From a bacterium (lineage in GTDB: Bacteria > Campylobacterota > Campylobacteria > Campylobacterales > Sulfurovaceae): a stretch of DNA of 63,320 nucleotides. This document shows positions 11,556 through 48,770 of this stretch, piece after piece; positions within the stretch are counted from its first letter, which is position 1; every line of letters begins with the position of its first letter. The DNA is taken from the NCBI GenBank assembly GCA_018822805.1, contig JAHJJU010000024.1:1-63320 (forward strand), given 5' to 3'. The notes under the pieces were generated by a model. The model did not search any database, had not been told where the DNA came from, and saw only the letters and a program-made list of their open reading frames with translations. The position numbers and the translations under genes were made by a program.

Positions 11556-11571
11556 TGCAATTCTTATTCCA
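11556..11571 (-). promoter_or_regulatory. Sigma-54 (-24/-12) promoter for nifT
   Basis: TGGAATAAGAATTGCA on the minus strand has GG and GC separated by exactly 10 bases and a TTGCA -12 element. The start site would be about 45 bases before nifT. Transcription could continue into nifA and give positive autoregulation. No TGT-N10-ACA activator site is seen upstream of it. Confidence 0.65.
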
Positions 11572-11656
11572 TCATACTAAATAGAGGTTGTTTTACTGTA
11601 AAATATAGATGAATTATACTGTTTCATAGTAATGACTATAAAAAGAGAAGTTATGC

Positions 11657-11662
11657 TATAAT
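11657..11662 (+). promoter_or_regulatory. -10 box for vapBC
   Basis: TATAAT lies 30 bases before the antitoxin ATG, which has an AAGGA ribosome site. The partly palindromic stretch TACTGTTTCATAGTA just upstream (11623-11637) could be an autoregulatory operator. Confidence 0.45.
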
Positions 11663-11691
11663 ATTTTAAAACCAATAACAAAGGAACTCCA

Positions 11692-11973
11692 ATGCTTGTA
11701 AGTGCAAATATAGAAGATAGACTACTACAAGAGCAAATTGCTAAGTATCTTGCAGGTAAGCAAAATGAGATTAGTGACCTGATGGTTGAAGCATTGAAGC
11801 AGTTCTTTAAGAAAGATAATTCTGTGTTGAACTATAAAGTGCAAGATGCAGATAAACATGCAAAGGTTATTGACTTTAATCTTGAAGATACAGACGCTGA
11901 TTATAAGCTATTTAAAGATGTTGATGATGTTCAGAGTTACTCTAGAGAGCTAAGAGCTAATGCTTGGAAATAG
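11692..11973 (+). CDS. Antitoxin of a VapBC-like pair
   Basis: This 93-residue acidic protein begins with a short helix/ribbon segment (LVSANIEDRLLQEQIAKYL) and continues with a helical dimerisation region and a charged C-terminal tail, as antitoxins that wrap a PIN toxin do. The antitoxin family is not certain. It overlaps the PIN gene by 14 bases. Toxin neutralisation and operon autorepression are inferred from the arrangement. Confidence 0.72.
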   Translation: MLVSANIEDRLLQEQIAKYLAGKQNEISDLMVEALKQFFKKDNSVLNYKVQDADKHAKVIDFNLEDTDADYKLFKDVDDVQSYSRELRANAWK

Positions 11974-12328
11974 GAAAGTGTTTGTTGATACTTGTATCGT
12001 TATTGAGTATCTAAAAGATAATATCGAATTAGATAAGAGCAACTGTTTTATCAATAATATTGTATTGATGGAGCTGTATATCGGTGCAATAAATAAGCGA
12101 GACTTGAGAGAGATAAAGACCAAGTTACAGGGGTTTAAACTTTTAGAGACCGACCAAAATATTATGAACCTATCTACACAGATTATTGAAAACTTTTCTC
12201 TTTCTAATGGAGCAAAAATTCAAGACTCTATTATCGCCTCTACCTGTTTGATTAATAATTTGCCAATTTGTACTTATAATATTAGAGATTTTCGGTATAT
12301 TCCTAATTTAGAGATGGTTGATTTATAG
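11960..12328 (+). CDS. vapC: PIN-domain toxin (VapC-like ribonuclease)
   Basis: The 122 residues carry the PIN acidic set: Asp10 (VFVDTCIVIEYL), Glu38 (IVLMELYIG), Asp89 (KIQDSIIAS) and a C-terminal Asp110 in TYNIRDF. VapC toxins are Mg-dependent RNases, often cutting tRNA or rRNA. The start lies inside the antitoxin gene. An AT-rich hairpin followed by eight T (about 12342-12387) closes the unit before the reverse transcriptase. The pair may stabilise the islet between nifT and the NadB-like gene. Confidence 0.85.
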   Translation: MLGNRKVFVDTCIVIEYLKDNIELDKSNCFINNIVLMELYIGAINKRDLREIKTKLQGFKLLETDQNIMNLSTQIIENFSLSNGAKIQDSIIASTCLINNLPICTYNIRDFRYIPNLEMVDL

Positions 12329-12341
12329 GTTTTCTTAAAGG

Positions 12342-12387
12342 ATATAATAATTTTCTTTAATAAAATTGTATATTATAGTTTTTTTTG
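12342..12387 (+). terminator. AT-rich terminator after vapC
   Basis: AATTTT / AAAATT arms around CTTTAAT, extended with bulges by ATAAT/ATTAT, are followed by a T8 run. The next transcription unit has its own TATAAT directly downstream. Confidence 0.5.
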
Positions 12388-12388
12388 A

Positions 12389-12394
12389 TATAAT
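12389..12394 (+). promoter_or_regulatory. -10 box of the reverse-transcriptase unit
   Basis: TATAAT directly after the T-run closing vapC. A start near 12401 would give a leader of about 93 bases before the RT ATG at 12494. Confidence 0.5.
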
Positions 12395-12407
12395 CCAAGG
12401 AAGCAAT

Positions 12408-12494
12408 ATGGGAAATAACTTTTTGAATACGATTCGTATTCGTTTTAGCGTTAATTATAATCTACCTATTTACCGATATTGCATCATAAACTAA
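12408..12494 (+). CDS. 28-codon leader ORF coupled to the reverse transcriptase
   Basis: ATG 12408 follows an AAGGA site by 6 bases and opens a frame of 28 codons that ends TAATG, sharing its last base with the RT ATG at 12494. The peptide (starting MGNNFLNTIRIRF) is basic and partly hydrophobic. The DNA also holds a 7 bp hairpin (GAATACG-ATT-CGTATTC, 12425-12441). It may be a translationally coupled leader peptide, or the DNA may belong to a structured retron RNA. The RT has no other good ribosome site, which favours coupling. Confidence 0.4.
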   Translation: MGNNFLNTIRIRFSVNYNLPIYRYCIIN

Positions 12495-14242
12495 TGAATC
12501 TATATTATTTAAACTCTTTAGATATAATTTCAAAAAGTTTTAATACTCCACTAGAATTTTTAAACTCTATATTTAATAGTGAAGTTAATAGTACATATAT
12601 TGAACTTTTCAACATACCTAAAAAAAATCCTAAACACTCAAAAAAATATAGAGAAGTTATAAATATCAAGAGTTCATATAATCTATTTTACAAAGAACTA
12701 CTATGTGTTATTGAGCAGATAATTGGTCAAAATGAAAAGAACTTTGTTAGTGATATTGCACATGGATTTATAAAAAATAGAGGTGTATTCACAAATGCAA
12801 AACAACATTTAAATAAAAAATATTTATTTAAAATTGATATAAAAGATTTTTTTAAATCCATTCCACAAGATGGCATTAGTAATACTTTTTTAAAACTTGG
12901 GTGTTCTCAAGATGGAGCAAATTTATTATCAACGCTATCTACATTTAATGGTATTTTATATGAAGGTTTTAACACAAGTCCTATATTAGCAAATCTATAT
13001 TGTTATAATTTAGATTTAGAACTTATAAAACTTGCTGATTCTTATGATGTGATAGTTACTAGATATAGTGATGATATTACTTTTTCATCAGATACCAATA
13101 GTTTTCCATCTATAGATGAGATTGAAAAGATATTAAAACAATATTTCTTTAATATAAACCATGAAAAAACTCTCTATTTAAAGTATGGACAACCTCAATA
13201 TGTTACAGGTCTAAGCATTTCGAATGATAAATATCCAAGAGTTCCAAAGAGATTAAAGAAAAAAATTAGACAAAATTTATATTATATGAATAAGTATCCA
13301 GAAAACTACTTTTATAAAGAAGATAATTATGCTGTACTAAGAGCTATTTATGGACATATTGTTTATCTATTGGGTATTGAAAAATCATTAGGAAAAAAAT
13401 ATCAATCAGAGTTTATTAACATAATAGAAAATTATCTTAATTTAGAAGATATTTATATAAATTCTCCACAGAAAAAAAGTACACTAAGTACATATCATTA
13501 CATTGATGAAAGTGAATTTATTGATAGCAAAACAAATAAATACTATTTAATTTTATCACTTATTTCAATCAATGGAGAATTTCAAAAAAATATGATTTCT
13601 GATAAAATAAATGCTCTAAAGAACGATTTAGCATCTGACTTTAGAAATGGATTAAATGATGAACAACGAAGTAAATTATTTCATTATTGTGAAGATAATA
13701 TCTCTGTTAAAGAGAAATATATTTCTATTCTAAGAGAATTGAATATAGAAGCACATATTATATTTAAATATGAAGATAAACCAATGAAAAAACAAGACTA
13801 TCAAGATAATTATTATGCTTTATTTAATAGTTTGATGAAGAATATATTAAGAAGATATAAAAATAATACCAATGTAATAGTGGTTGAAGAGAATTCAAAA
13901 ATTTCAATAAATACATTGGAAAAGAGTATTTTGAACAGAAGGTTCTTTTTCCCAAATATAGAAATAGCAAAAGCTAGTAAAGATGATGTATTATTAAGCA
14001 TACCTGATTATATTTTAGGAATAGTGAGAGATTGTTTGAAAAAAGATTTCTTAGAAACATTAGAAAAATTAAAAGCAGGACAAAGACTAAAAGAAGATAT
14101 AAAATTTGATGAAATTTCTAACAAAATTAGATTGATTGCAAACTTAAATAATAGTAATTTTTTTACAAGACAAAATAACAGTCAACTTACTTGTATAAAG
14201 CTTAATCAGTATATCCATCACAAAAGGATTTTAGGGTCATAA
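12494..14242 (+). CDS. Retron-type reverse transcriptase fused to a DUF3800-like domain
   Basis: The 582 residues begin at ATG 12494. The longer TTG start (12479) is less likely. The RT domain (about 1-315) has the retron-specific NAKQH (NAxxH, about 101-105), motif A FKIDIKDFF, motif B NTSPILANLYC, the catalytic YSDD and the VTG motif (YVTGLSIS). From about 335 a second domain starts YHYIDESEF and ends LLSIPDYILGIVRD, matching the acidic ends of DUF3800 (DESG ... LQLADLIAG), a predicted RNase H-like nuclease. RT-DUF3800 fusions are known among retrons (type VII-A1 as I recall). The codon use is strikingly A/T-rich. It sits with VapBC between nifT and the NadB-like gene. Confidence 0.85.
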   Translation: MNLYYLNSLDIISKSFNTPLEFLNSIFNSEVNSTYIELFNIPKKNPKHSKKYREVINIKSSYNLFYKELLCVIEQIIGQNEKNFVSDIAHGFIKNRGVFTNAKQHLNKKYLFKIDIKDFFKSIPQDGISNTFLKLGCSQDGANLLSTLSTFNGILYEGFNTSPILANLYCYNLDLELIKLADSYDVIVTRYSDDITFSSDTNSFPSIDEIEKILKQYFFNINHEKTLYLKYGQPQYVTGLSISNDKYPRVPKRLKKKIRQNLYYMNKYPENYFYKEDNYAVLRAIYGHIVYLLGIEKSLGKKYQSEFINIIENYLNLEDIYINSPQKKSTLSTYHYIDESEFIDSKTNKYYLILSLISINGEFQKNMISDKINALKNDLASDFRNGLNDEQRSKLFHYCEDNISVKEKYISILRELNIEAHIIFKYEDKPMKKQDYQDNYYALFNSLMKNILRRYKNNTNVIVVEENSKISINTLEKSILNRRFFFPNIEIAKASKDDVLLSIPDYILGIVRDCLKKDFLETLEKLKAGQRLKEDIKFDEISNKIRLIANLNNSNFFTRQNNSQLTCIKLNQYIHHKRILGS

Positions 14243-14263
14243 ATTTTTATATACCCCCTAAAA
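14229..14263 (+). other. Hairpin spanning the RT stop codon
   Basis: TTTTAGGG (14229-14236) pairs with CCCTAAAA (14256-14263) across 19 bases that include the RT stop. The CCCTAAAA word returns at 14346. This hairpin directly abuts the outer inverted repeat of the next feature. Confidence 0.5.
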
Positions 14264-14396
14264 CAATACCTTAGCCATTTTTTTAACTAATTTTTCAAAG
14301 CCCTAGATTTAGGGCTTTGAATTTTTTGACTATTTTCTCTAAACCCCTAAAAATAGGACTTTACTATTTCAGATATTTTTTTGGCTAAGGTATTGT
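14263..14396. ncRNA. Candidate retron-like structured RNA with a 15 bp closing stem
   Basis: A perfect 15-base inverted repeat, ACAATACCTTAGCCA at 14263-14277 and its complement at 14382-14396, encloses two more hairpins. One is a 12 bp stem TTCAAAGCCCTA with a GATT loop (14294-14321), followed by T6. The other is a 7 bp stem CTATTTT/AAAATAG with a 13-base loop (14330-14356). The plan of paired ends around internal stems resembles a retron msr-msd with a1/a2 arms, and CCUUAG at the end of the arm recalls the branching-G context of Ec86. It lies downstream of the RT rather than upstream, and the right arm is inside the NadB-like gene. A bidirectional terminator is the plain alternative. Confidence 0.4.
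14294..14327 (+). terminator. Strong intrinsic terminator after the RT gene
   Basis: A 12 bp perfect stem with a GATT loop is followed by TTTTTT on the plus strand. Taken alone it would end RT transcription, inside the larger palindromic segment described at 14263-14396. Confidence 0.7.
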
Positions 14397-16033
14397 AAAA
14401 CAAACTCCCTAACCCTACTCAAAAAACCACTCTCTTTAAAATCAACCCTAAAAAAATTCGGTCTAAATTCACTTACTGTTATCGCTTTTGCCATCTCTTT
14501 GTTGGTGAACTTATAGTCATCTCTATGATGAGACCCACGGCTCTCTTTTCGTTTTTGGGCAGCCAATACCACTGCTTCTGCCACCTCCAGTGCATTTCTA
14601 AGCTCTAAGATGGCGATGAGTTCTACATTATTGGTTCGCTCTTTATTGACACAGTGTAAGCTATATACCTCAGTGCGTAAATAGGTCAAATAGGAAAAAG
14701 CTTCTGTCAAACTCTGCTCTGTTCTATGAATGCCCACTTTGTCAAACATCATCTTTCCCATACTCACACGCATGGCATTAAAGTTTTTGGTCGTTTCACT
14801 ATCAAAAATCTTATCAACCAGTTTAATATCTTTGATGATTCTGTTGTAATCAATGGGTAAAAACTGCTTTTGCCATGTAAATTTTCGTGCCTCTTCACCA
14901 GCCAACTCACCAAATACAGCTCCTTCTAAGAGCGAGTTTCCTCCTAGTCTATTCGCACCATGCACCCCACTGTTCGCACACTCACCACAAACAAAAAGCC
15001 CTTTAATCTTGGTTTTTACCATCTTTTTTGTGGCAATTCCACCCATACTGTAGTGAGCCACGGGTTTAATGGGCAACAGCTCTTGGCTAATATCAAGTCC
15101 AGCTTGAAGATAAGCACTTTTATAAAGCGATGGTAACTTACTCTCAATATGCTCTTTGGTCAAATGACGCAAATCTATAAAGACCTCTTTTCCCTCAGAT
15201 ATCTGCTCGGCAATGGCTCTTGAAACCACATCACGAGTTTCTAGTTCATCAACAAATCGCTCACCATCACTGTTGACTAAATAGCCCCCTTCCCCTCGTG
15301 CAGCTTCACTCACCAAATAACTGGTTTTTACAAACCCTGTAGGGTGAAACTGAACAAACTCCATATCTTGCAACGCAAGTCCTGCACGCAGAGCAATGGC
15401 ATACATATCTCCACTATAGTCAGGGGCATTGGTGGAATAGCCTCTAAAAATTCCTGCATAACCTCCCCCTGCTAAGACCACAGCTTTAGCAGGATAGACC
15501 ACCACCGAGGAGTCAAAGCGTCGCAAAACCACCAACCCTGAGATACGTCCTTTAAGTGTGGTAAGGTTCATAACAAAATTGTTTACCAAAAATGTCACCC
15601 CCACACTTTTGGCTTTTTTAATCAACGCTTGAACAATCGCTGAACCCGTCTTATCGCCCACATAACAGGTTCGTTTGGAGCTTCCCCCACCAAAACTGAG
15701 TTGGGCGATATTTTCCTTTTCATCTTTGTCAAAGACCACTCCATACTCAGAGAGTTTTTTGATGATATGAGGAGCTCTTTTACATAGGTAGCTTATCGCC
15801 TCTTTGTCACCTAGACCATAACTCCCTTTTAAAGTATCGTTAATGTGTTTCGCGATTTCGCTGTTGTTATGCTTGTCTAAAACAGCGTTAATTCCCCCAC
15901 TTGCCATAGAGCTGTTGGATTTAAACAGATTGCCTTTGGTCATAATGGCAACTTTGTTGTTTCGGCTTCGTGCCTCTATCGCTGCCATAAGTCCGGCGAT
16001 ACCTCCACCGACCACAATCACATCATATATCAT
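14369..16033 (-). CDS. nadB: NadB/FrdA-family FAD oxidoreductase (L-aspartate oxidase-like)
   Basis: The 554-residue flavoprotein starts with an FAD-binding GGGIAG (9-14). It has substrate-site motifs FHPTGF and SEAARGEGGYLVN, a catalytic-region pair ELETRDVVSRA and HYSMGGI, and the FAD-closing stretch GANRLGGNSLLEGAVFG. L-aspartate oxidase makes iminoaspartate for NAD synthesis, and the soluble monomer-like length fits. The usual NadB GGHSRRR segment reads GGGSSKRTCY here, so a fumarate-reductase-like role is possible. It follows the aldo/keto reductase gene by 3 bases. The last codons form the right arm of the palindromic element after the RT gene. Confidence 0.7.
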   Translation of the reverse strand: MIYDVIVVGGGIAGLMAAIEARSRNNKVAIMTKGNLFKSNSSMASGGINAVLDKHNNSEIAKHINDTLKGSYGLGDKEAISYLCKRAPHIIKKLSEYGVVFDKDEKENIAQLSFGGGSSKRTCYVGDKTGSAIVQALIKKAKSVGVTFLVNNFVMNLTTLKGRISGLVVLRRFDSSVVVYPAKAVVLAGGGYAGIFRGYSTNAPDYSGDMYAIALRAGLALQDMEFVQFHPTGFVKTSYLVSEAARGEGGYLVNSDGERFVDELETRDVVSRAIAEQISEGKEVFIDLRHLTKEHIESKLPSLYKSAYLQAGLDISQELLPIKPVAHYSMGGIATKKMVKTKIKGLFVCGECANSGVHGANRLGGNSLLEGAVFGELAGEEARKFTWQKQFLPIDYNRIIKDIKLVDKIFDSETTKNFNAMRVSMGKMMFDKVGIHRTEQSLTEAFSYLTYLRTEVYSLHCVNKERTNNVELIAILELRNALEVAEAVVLAAQKRKESRGSHHRDDYKFTNKEMAKAITVSEFRPNFFRVDFKESGFLSRVREFVLQYLSQKNI

Positions 16034-17275: not shown

Positions 17276-17481
17276 AACCTGAGTTCGACGGAATACCATA
17301 GCCACAAAAGTCTAAAAATAGATAAGATTTTCAAAATTAAATTCGTAGGACTAGCCATAGCTAATTCAAGAATTTTATTTAGGAAAGATTGCCTATTTTT
17401 AGGCTTCCCTTTGGGTTTTACGAGGTTTCCCATAGGCAACCTCGTAAAATTGTGGCTATGGTATTCCGTCGAACTCAGGTT
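17276..17481. repeat. 206 bp element with 32 bp perfect terminal inverted repeats
   Basis: The arms at 17276-17307 and 17450-17481 are exact complements over 32 bases. Inside are a 12 bp hairpin abutting the right arm (17416-17427 with 17438-17449) and a GCCTA-TTTT-TAGGC hairpin (17391-17404). No coding sequence fits. The plan suggests a non-autonomous mobile element (MITE) or a strongly folded RNA. It fills most of the gap between modC and the 31-codon ORF. Confidence 0.7.
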
Positions 17482-19142: not shown

Positions 19143-19235
19143 GTAGGGTGCGTTTCCCAACGCACCATTCGTTGGCATAAAGAAAATGTTTGGTTTTTGG
19201 TTTAAATAATCGGTGCGTTGGGAAACGCACCCTAC
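19143..19235. repeat. TAGGGTGC palindrome, copy 3, paired element
   Basis: Two 24-base units, 19143-19166 and 19212-19235, are perfect inverted copies of each other, and each is itself a GGTGCGTT/AACGCACC-type hairpin. They bracket 45 bases of plain DNA. The pair lies exactly at the junction between modB and the nuclease gene of the inserted cassette. Confidence 0.75.
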
Positions 19236-19246
19236 GAAAGCTATAA

Positions 19247-20395
19247 TCATAAACCCACCCTCTTAAAACCTAACTCATCAGTAATGTCTTTAATAAGTTT
19301 AGAAAGTGGTCGTTTATTAAACTCTTCACCATCTTTATAGTTACAAAATAAAAATCTATATATTTCATCATCTGTTAAACGAAAGTTCTTTTTTAATTCA
19401 GCTATATAAGATTTTGAATAGATGGTTCTTTTGACCAACAGTTCTAAAACAACATCTTTATGTTGTGCATAGAGTTTATCAAGTTTGAAGTAGTCATTAC
19501 TATCTTTTCTATCCTTATCATCTTGTTTATTATTTTTATCTTTTATCTCAACTTCAAAATTATTAGTATTATATTTTCGTTTTTTAACTTGAAGAAAATT
19601 CATATTTGTAGGTCTATAGGTTAGTTTAAATGTGTTCTCATCTATCTCATAAGGGCTTAAAAGTTCATCTTTATATGTATCTTTACTACCTTTTGTATGA
19701 TTACAAACTTTACAACTAGGAATAAGATTATAAAAACTCATGGCTAAATAGGGATAGTCTGATTTTGGAAAAAAGTGGTCAATTTCAGGTCTTAAACCAT
19801 TTTTACTATCTTTATCTCTTTCTGAGATGAGAATATAGCCCATATTACAATAAGGACATGTTTTTAAGTTGTGTTTTATGACAAAGATATATCTATCATA
19901 ATTCACTATATCATCCCATTTATTTTCATAAAAATCTACAAAAACATCTTTTAAAACAGCGTCTATTTTATTCTCTAAAACAACAATTTTTAAATTATCA
20001 ACCATTTCTCCACTTAAGCTTGTATGTGAACGTACTAAAGTAACCAATTCATTTTTATTCTTATTAGAGAAACCTCTAATATTATTTTCTCTACAAATTT
20101 GTTTTAATTTATCAACACTAAAAACTTCGTTATTAGCAATAGTTAGTGTCTCAGCAGGAATGAAAGTTTTAATAAAGTTATCAAATTCTTGAATAATCCC
20201 TCGTAACTTTTTTACATCTTGCTTTAATATAAAGTTTAAATGCCAACTTATCCAATCTAAGGCTTGATATTCAAAAGAGTCCATTTCAAAACTATCTCGT
20301 TTAGTTGTTAATGAATCATGTATACTCTCATTAACTTTATTAAAATGTAAATCCCTAAAAGCTATATTTTCATCATCTATTTTAATCGGTATCAT
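19247..20395 (-). CDS. SAP-HNH nuclease, PtuB-like
   Basis: About 382 residues from ATG 20395, which has AGAGG just upstream. The ATG at 20419 lacks a site. A SAP-like helix-turn-helix (FSVDKLKQICREN, near residue 95-125) suggests DNA binding. The HNH core follows: CPYC near 180, PEIDHFFPKS, NLIPSCKVCNHTKGS. The two CxxC pairs would hold zinc and the DH pair would bind the metal. It overlaps the ATPase gene by 14 bases. ATPase plus HNH pairs form Septu (PtuAB) and type I retron effectors, so a phage-defence nuclease is likely. Confidence 0.78.
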   Translation of the reverse strand: MIPIKIDDENIAFRDLHFNKVNESIHDSLTTKRDSFEMDSFEYQALDWISWHLNFILKQDVKKLRGIIQEFDNFIKTFIPAETLTIANNEVFSVDKLKQICRENNIRGFSNKNKNELVTLVRSHTSLSGEMVDNLKIVVLENKIDAVLKDVFVDFYENKWDDIVNYDRYIFVIKHNLKTCPYCNMGYILISERDKDSKNGLRPEIDHFFPKSDYPYLAMSFYNLIPSCKVCNHTKGSKDTYKDELLSPYEIDENTFKLTYRPTNMNFLQVKKRKYNTNNFEVEIKDKNNKQDDKDRKDSNDYFKLDKLYAQHKDVVLELLVKRTIYSKSYIAELKKNFRLTDDEIYRFLFCNYKDGEEFNKRPLSKLIKDITDELGFKRVGL

Positions 20396-22196
20396 TTTGC
20401 CTCTTTTCAATAGATTCAAGTCTTTTTATTATCTCGTCTTGTTGTTCTTTAAGTTGTTGCTTCTCCCTTTCTAATTCATCTTTTTCAAATTTTTCATAAT
20501 ACATATCACTAAGTTTCCTTCTTAGTAAATCTTCGCCTATACTTTCAATAACTTTTTTTATTTGATTTTGAGGGGTAGATATATCTTCAAGTTTTTTATC
20601 ATTATTTAAATAGTTCATAATTTCTTGAATTTTATTTTTAGCAAACTTTCCCATTAAGCCATCTTCCATAAAAAAACCATCAGATAAAAGTGTATGAATG
20701 TTTTGTCCAAAAGTATTAAGGTTAATTTCTTTGCTCACATTAATGCAGTATCCATCTTTAATATCGTTTGGTAATTTTAATTTAGGATATTTTTTTTCTG
20801 TTTTTTCTTTTTTGTAAGTGTCTAAAAAAACTATATTTTGTTTTGGTATGTCTGATAAGAGGAAAGGAGAATGGGTTAAAAAAATCAAATGAACATTTTT
20901 GTCCAAAATTCTAAAAATATTATTTATATCACAAAATATTTTTTTTTGCCACTCTGGATGTAACGAAGTTTCTATTTCATCAAAAAAATAAAATTTTGGT
21001 TGTTTATTTAAGTCACCTCCACTACGATTACTAATAATTTCAATTATTAACCTTATATAGTGTTTTTCACCATTTGATAATAAATTATACACCATATTTT
21101 TTTTAGAATCATATAGTTCTAAATCAAAAATTGGTAAATTTTCTTGTTTTGTTCCTAAAAAATTAGGAATATCAAAGAAGTTTTCAAATATCCATAATTT
21201 ATCTAAGTTAGTATCTTCTATATTTAGCTCAAAATATATTCTTAAATTATTTTGAATATCAACCTTTTCTAAAAGTTTTTTGTCCTTAAGGTATTCTAAT
21301 GCTTCCAGAATATCATCAATTTTAGGAATAAAAGAAAAATCTTCTTTGTTTATTTCAAAACAATCATTAATTAAAAAAAGTTTATGAATATGTTCAGATT
21401 GATATTTATCTTTGAAATCTTTTTGTCTAAGATAGAATCTTATTAATGCTCTTTTTAATGTTTGGCAAAATAAGTCATCTGAAAGAGAAAACCCTAAATT
21501 TTCTTCTAATTCTATTTTTTCCATACTAGTTAATTTTTCAAGAACTTGAACTTGATTTATGTCTTCAATACTATCATTTATATTGAACTCTTTTAATATA
21601 AATCTAACTTTATCAAATTCATAAAAAAATGTTTTATTCTTAAAGAGATTCAAATTTTTTCTATATTGATTAATATATTTTGGTATAAATATATGATCAT
21701 TAGCATCACTGTATTGATATTTTGTGGAAGTTCTAAAATCAAAATTCAAACCATTCAAATAGAGAATATTATGATTATAATCTCTATTTTCTTTTGCTCC
21801 AATTTCAACCCCTGAAGAACTTACTTCTACACTTGATTTAACATGACTTTTTTTTGAACCTAATATCTCAAATTCTACATTATCATATGAATAATACTTA
21901 TCATCATTACAATTATATGCAACTATTATATATTTATTATGTCTTTTATGTGGAACTTTTGGAAGAATCATTTCCGATATACTACTCTTCCCACTCCCAT
22001 TTTTCCCAACAATAGCCGTAACATTAATATTTTTACCAAAAAAGTTTTCTATATATTGTTTATTCCCATCCTCATCAATATTTTCTTTAACTGTTAAGTT
22101 TTCACCATCATAATGACAATTAAATCTAGGAGAAAAATTAAACCCCTGCTTATAAATATTCTTATACTCTTCAACCCATAAATAAACCAGTTCCAT
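20382..22196 (-). CDS. SMC-like AAA ATPase, PtuA-like
   Basis: The 604 residues have Walker A VGKNGSGKSS (63-72), Walker B KFYFFDEIETSLHPEW, and IFLTHSPFLLSDIPK with the sensor His, the OLD/Septu ABC-ATPase pattern. The C-terminal 60 residues are a charged coiled coil (from DELEREKQQLKEQQ). Signature-like LLSNGEKHYIRL is present. It shares an A with the upstream stop (TAATG) and overlaps the HNH gene. It probably gates the nuclease by ATP binding, as in PtuAB. Base composition is more AT-rich than the mod genes around it. Confidence 0.78.
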   Translation of the reverse strand: MELVYLWVEEYKNIYKQGFNFSPRFNCHYDGENLTVKENIDEDGNKQYIENFFGKNINVTAIVGKNGSGKSSISEMILPKVPHKRHNKYIIVAYNCNDDKYYSYDNVEFEILGSKKSHVKSSVEVSSSGVEIGAKENRDYNHNILYLNGLNFDFRTSTKYQYSDANDHIFIPKYINQYRKNLNLFKNKTFFYEFDKVRFILKEFNINDSIEDINQVQVLEKLTSMEKIELEENLGFSLSDDLFCQTLKRALIRFYLRQKDFKDKYQSEHIHKLFLINDCFEINKEDFSFIPKIDDILEALEYLKDKKLLEKVDIQNNLRIYFELNIEDTNLDKLWIFENFFDIPNFLGTKQENLPIFDLELYDSKKNMVYNLLSNGEKHYIRLIIEIISNRSGGDLNKQPKFYFFDEIETSLHPEWQKKIFCDINNIFRILDKNVHLIFLTHSPFLLSDIPKQNIVFLDTYKKEKTEKKYPKLKLPNDIKDGYCINVSKEINLNTFGQNIHTLLSDGFFMEDGLMGKFAKNKIQEIMNYLNNDKKLEDISTPQNQIKKVIESIGEDLLRRKLSDMYYEKFEKDELEREKQQLKEQQDEIIKRLESIEKRQNDTD

Positions 22197-48581: not shown

Positions 48582-48770
48582 CCCCCAAATGGCCGTTCTG
48601 CATAAAAGCCGGCCCTAAAAAGCCAACGATGTAGGAGAGAGTAATCTTTAGGGGATAAATTCTCGCCAGCAAAGCTCAGCTCAGACGAAGATACCCACAC
48701 ACCGATTAACTACGTGTCCCACAATAGATAATGTTGGACCACATATAACAGTAGTCGAACCATCCAGGTT
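48582..48770 (-). ncRNA. ssrS: 6S-like structured RNA upstream of purD
   Basis: About 189 bases on the minus strand lie after a TATAAT (48782-48777). The ends pair over 11 continuous positions with several G-U pairs: CCUGGAUGGUU at the 5' end with GGCCAUUUGGG at the 3' end. An internal stem ACTAC...GTAGT is also present, and T6 follows the 3' end. Length, rod-like end pairing and freestanding promoter fit 6S RNA, which sequesters sigma-70 RNA polymerase. I could not match it to tmRNA, RNase P or SRP RNA. The identity is a structural inference. Confidence 0.45.

Follow-up and report, generated by a model that had tools for sequence, protein, structure and literature searches.

We propose that the window, by which we mean the whole 63,320-nucleotide stretch of DNA that was analysed, carries a type VII-A1 retron in the order RNA and then RT–DUF3800, that this retron was brought in together with a VapBC-like pair as a cassette of ~2.8 kb, and that an RNA of ~80 nt upstream of the gene is the partner of the reverse transcriptase (RT); we regard this combined reading as probable. 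The RNA partner is likely to be the element at 12403-12482, which lies directly upstream of the gene in the usual place for a retron RNA, and the gene order is therefore conventional. The features are collected in Table 1.

Table 1. Features of the retron cassette and its surroundings (positions in the window)
Feature	Position	Strand	Remarks
Inserted cassette, ~2.8 kb	11600-14392 (ends approximate)		Flanked by nifT and the flavoprotein gene; contains the VapBC-like pair, the retron and the terminator
VapBC-like toxin-antitoxin pair	11692-12328	+	Same insertion; 93-aa ORF without a family, then PIN/VapC toxin (11960-12328)
TATAAT -10 box of the RNA	12389-12394	+	Exact TATAAT, 8 nt ahead of the RNA element
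Candidate retron RNA, 80 nt	12403-12482	+	Covariance model, covariation, shared architecture
RNA arm a1	12403-12417	+	Part of the a1/a2-like closing helix
RNA hairpin, 7 bp	12425-12441	+	Inside the closing helix
Conserved unpaired stretch of the RNA	12442-12466	+	Between the hairpin and arm a2
RNA arm a2	12467-12482	+	Part of the a1/a2-like closing helix
RT–DUF3800 fusion gene, retron type VII-A1	12494-14242	+	ATG start; RT ~12494-13423, DUF3800-like domain ~13424-14239
Left arm of inverted repeat	14263-14277	+	Perfect over 15 bp with 14382-14396
Intrinsic terminator of the RT gene	14294-14321	+	12 bp stem, 4-nt loop, then TTTTTT
Flavoprotein gene	14369-16033	-	3' end contains the right repeat arm
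Right arm of inverted repeat	14382-14396	+	Crosses the insertion's right edge; covers the last codons of the flavoprotein gene

The RT–DUF3800 protein and its relatives

A preliminary description of this DNA had taken the gene for a retron RT with NAxxH, VTG and YSDD markers, fused to a second, DUF3800-like domain with acidic ends, and both parts of that assignment are borne out. Judged by its sequence, the gene encodes a full-length type VII-A1 retron enzyme, in which an RT is joined to a DUF3800-like domain. PADLOC matched residues 38-562 of the protein to RT-DUF3800_VII-A1 (E 3.1e-86), the runner-up class for the RT part being VII-A2 (E 2e-62), and retron profiles made up the bulk of the PADLOC matches for the RT. 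Pfam RVT_1 matched the RT at 2e-19, and the retron motifs are present as NAKQH (NAxxH), YVTGLS (VTG) and TRYSDD (YxDD). The conserved acidic ends of DUF3800 can be seen in the C-terminal half as YIDES and IPDYILG. Pfam's own DUF3800 model made no call on this protein or on its relatives, in which Pfam found the RT only; in a profile–profile comparison, the C-terminal half together with five relatives matched genuine PF12686 proteins (probability 93%, E 3.8e-7), with the DE near the domain start and the S..PD..LG near the domain end both in register. The AlphaFold prediction was unusable (pLDDT 39) because alignment depth was too low.

Homologues were gathered from class and order searches, plasmids and IMG/VR. 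They comprise a full-length VII-A homologue (L033), a locus with the RT and DUF3800-like domains in two separate ORFs (L053), a decayed VII-A1 copy with its middle missing (L035/L147) and two plasmid-borne, canonical VII-A1 members from the Alphaproteobacteria, in Rhizobium (L054) and Aminobacter (L055), with E values of 1e-266 and 2e-251, to which the window protein is 28% and 24% identical. Like type VII-A1 as defined in PADLOC (PDLC02957/PDLC02958), the window protein is an RT–DUF3800 fusion over nearly its whole length, and by sequence it is a divergent member of that type with the conventional gene order. Type VII-A2 (PDLC02953) differs in having a separate RT and partner where the window protein is a single fused chain; L053 provides a likeness to it, as its two domains lie in separate ORFs and are accompanied by the same RNA. 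Scanning viral contigs with several alignments added one more VII-A1 gene (L058), on a contig that begins too near the gene to allow a reading of its leader. A search of genome contigs returned one distant RT, and an alignment of DUF3800 alone was too diverged to serve as a query.

Several observations on these loci may be recorded in their own right. The VII-A1 gene of L147 (2335-3353) is decayed, with its middle deleted and stops present, and the RNA upstream of it is intact with a score equal to that of the window's. In L058 the VII-A1-like RT–DUF3800 gene occupies 150-1718 of the viral contig, and the genes that follow it resemble what we take to be phage portal and terminase genes. On the Aminobacter plasmid, a DRT8 reverse transcriptase (L055 468-2057, E 1.8e-136) lies directly upstream of the VII-A1 retron.

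A conserved RNA directly upstream of the gene

The upstream leader had been described as short. At 165 nt it is, but it is roomy enough for an RNA of 80 nt, and such an RNA was found there, its 3' end 11 nt from the RT start codon; an in-frame TTG at 12479, upstream of the ATG, falls within it. The window and L035 share, in their leaders, CAATATGGGAAATA, the hairpin, and then GTTAATTAYAATCTACCTATTTACC and ATATTGC. When six leaders were folded as single sequences, the closing helix appeared in all six and the same hairpin in most; no second hairpin conserved across the six was seen on folding. The leaders of L054 and L055 share the layout of the window RNA, with a sequence that differs apart from the hairpin loop. 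A TATAAT also stands 6, 6 and 5 nt ahead of the RNA in L035, L033 and L053 respectively; since the box precedes arm a1 by 5-8 nt at each of the four AT-rich loci, transcription is likely to start at the helix.

A covariance model trained on the window and L035 only (R1) matched L053 (E 3.6e-4) and L033 (E 9.6e-4), in each case directly upstream of the VII-A RT and on the correct strand. Within 185 kb that included 25 other RT loci, R1 found no other new place at E < 0.09 and none of the 25 RT loci; its residual matches, with E values from 0.09 upwards, were to the leader of L055 and to copies of the element read in antisense. In the alignment of the four sequences to the model, 97.5% of pair cells held standard pairs (31-51% when slid), two-sided changes were seen at 8 of the 22 pairs, and the covariation score was 0.50, where shuffles gave 0.25 and slid structures no more than 0.18, figures that are to be read with the fact that an alignment fitted to the structure favours that structure. 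The four-sequence model (R2), run over 397 genomes of the class, recovered all four genomes with VII-A RTs and one weak match, in G131 (E 0.038), which was set aside, as it lies antisense inside clpA.

On the GC-rich Alphaproteobacterial leaders R2 gave no significant match (L055, E 0.46). A descriptor of the RNA that required perfect arms of 9 bp, a hairpin whose stem is 7 bp and whose loop is A(G/T)T, and set spacing picked out both Alphaproteobacterial VII-A1 leaders, L035 and one other place in 2.1 Mb of scanned strand, a count that serves as a rough guide since the descriptor was composed after these loci had been seen. When the conserved stretch was searched for as an exact pattern, five places came up, all unrelated. 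Rfam held no match above chance for the RNA or for the region downstream of the gene.

One could also read the upstream element as a cis-acting leader that regulates the RT–DUF3800 gene, for instance by feedback on its own messenger, and not as a template. Its closeness to the start codon would suit such a role, and no RNA product is known; however, the layout is kept from the Alphaproteobacteria to the lineage of the window despite divergence in sequence, as for a retron RNA, and the TATAAT box where the helix starts points to an RNA with a defined 5' end. We therefore hold a purely regulatory leader to be very unlikely.

The inserted cassette and the downstream repeat

In three relatives (G031, G027 and G016) nifT and the flavoprotein gene are adjacent, and the site is empty; nifA was identified along with nifT. 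The flanking DNA is 83.6/85.5%, 78.2/79.3% and about 71% identical on either side in the three relatives. The right edge of the insertion lies at ~14392 and the left edge is placed to within ~30 bp, and any direct repeat at the ends is at most about 7 bp long. The toxin that shares the cassette has a PIN domain (E 1.3e-8) and matches a VapC profile at E 1.3e-9, which is below that profile's curated cut-off. The alignment with the empty site of G031 restarts at 14393, inside the right arm of the downstream inverted repeat, and this arm is therefore partly insert and partly host. The flavoprotein of G031 stops soon after VRE-ILQ and that of the window continues (..QYLSQKNI) into the insert; the last codons of the flavoprotein gene were thus replaced by the insertion. 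In the surroundings of the cassette, an ATPase and HNH pair at 19247-22196 on the minus strand, ~5 kb from the retron, matches the candidate defence system PDC-M62A/B (E 1e-88 and 2e-61), and a purD RNA motif (Rfam RF01069, 80.6 bits) lies at 48583-48713, also on the minus strand.

The preliminary description had seen in the downstream repeat a candidate RNA much like an msr-msd and, if confirmed, either a retron with an unusual gene order or a new RNA partner for this class of RT. The repeat does exist and is perfect over 15 bp, and the region 14243-14420 folds more stably than its shuffles (z -7.0). However, the right arm is in part host DNA that encodes the last residues of the flavoprotein, the main inner hairpin is the terminator of the RT gene, a comparable arrangement was found downstream of none of six homologous loci (L033, L053, L054, L055, L058 and L147), and it is upstream that a conserved RNA with covarying pairs and an a1/a2-like helix is found. 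The reading of 14263-14396 as the msr-msd is accordingly extremely improbable, and the claim of an unusual order falls with it.

The repeat had further been said to enclose two hairpins: the first is strong, and the second is weak, with 3 bp left in the centroid. The plainer alternative also offered, a bidirectional terminator with an outer repeat, fits in so far as a terminator with an outer repeat is what is found, the hairpin being the sole terminator-like site in 11560-14460, but there is no T-run or terminator on the minus strand at the repeat and the terminator acts, as predicted, on the plus strand only. The repeat region had no sequence match in any other locus compared, and no further exact copy of the arm sequence was found in the genome. 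Perfect inverted repeats are not exceptional here, because the window holds two longer ones, members of repeat families of this genome, and the 15 bp repeat may have arisen by chance or by a small inverted duplication. We conclude that it has no role in the retron and is a terminator region beside an insertion edge. The two longer repeats are of 32 bp (17276-17307 with 17450-17481) and 24 bp (19143-19166 with 19212-19235) and come from two families with 21 and 26 places in the genome (at most two mismatches), several of them in inverted pairs; they are REP-like palindromic elements.

Proposed mode of action

Classical msr-msd RNAs, such as that of Retron-Eco1/Ec86, lie upstream of the RT and have their ends closed by a long a1/a2 helix with a hairpin inside. 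The window RNA is like them in its a1/a2-like closing helix, its inner hairpin and its place upstream of the RT, and differs from them in being ~80 nt long with one conserved hairpin and in showing neither an evident long msd hairpin nor an assigned priming G; no recognizable priming-G context was found in it. It also resembles the canonical VII-A1 loci L054 and L055, where the RNA stands immediately upstream in the same layout, the differences being the divergence of the window protein and an RNA sequence unlike theirs except in the hairpin loop.

With neither a clear msd hairpin nor a priming-G context, the RNA may fall outside the classical msr-msd type. It could be a partner of the RT that acts as a guide, template or scaffold, as in DRT systems, with no branched msDNA being made. 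The single hairpin and the want of an evident msd hairpin or clear priming G point this way, and DRT RTs with small RNAs and protein priming are known (PMC12489045; PMC12632851). Against this, the RT has the NAxxH and VTG motifs of retrons and is matched by retron profiles, and retrons typically have an RNA that lies ahead of the RT and is closed by an a1/a2-like helix; on balance we think a DRT-like role unlikely.

On the preferred reading of the locus as a retron, we propose that the RNA of ~80 nt would be made from its own promoter and fold with one hairpin enclosed by the closing helix, and that the RT would bind it. The RT would then probably copy part of the stretch between the hairpin and the 3' arm into a short msDNA, for which the conserved unpaired stretch is the best candidate template. 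Since neither a second conserved hairpin nor an evident context for a priming G is seen, this DNA would either be very short or arise by another route. By analogy with characterized retrons, in which the RT binds its RNA and makes msDNA and the complex restrains an effector until phage infection (PMC8867640; PMC12548924; PMC13405049), a complex of RNA, DNA and protein may keep the fused DUF3800-like domain, a putative nuclease, silent until a phage disturbs it. Type VII-A1 is presumed to be an anti-virus system.

Covariance models of retron RNAs are included in PADLOC (PMC9252829). In the literature searched, which excluded the defining 2020 classification and the 2024 retron census, DUF3800 or VII-A1 was not found named together with retrons. 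We put forward, tentatively, that type VII-A retrons possess a minimal (~80 nt), single-hairpin RNA that is undescribed, extends from the Alphaproteobacteria to the lineage of the window and lacks an msd hairpin, and that an unusually short msDNA, or DNA synthesis of another kind, might control the DUF3800-like nuclease. The claim of a reversed gene order is removed, and a little-studied type of retron gains an RNA that can be tested, for which there are now a covariance model, a promoter and a precisely delimited 80-nt element suitable for expression alongside the RT. Should an msd hairpin really be missing from the RNA, this would reveal how little RNA a functional retron needs.
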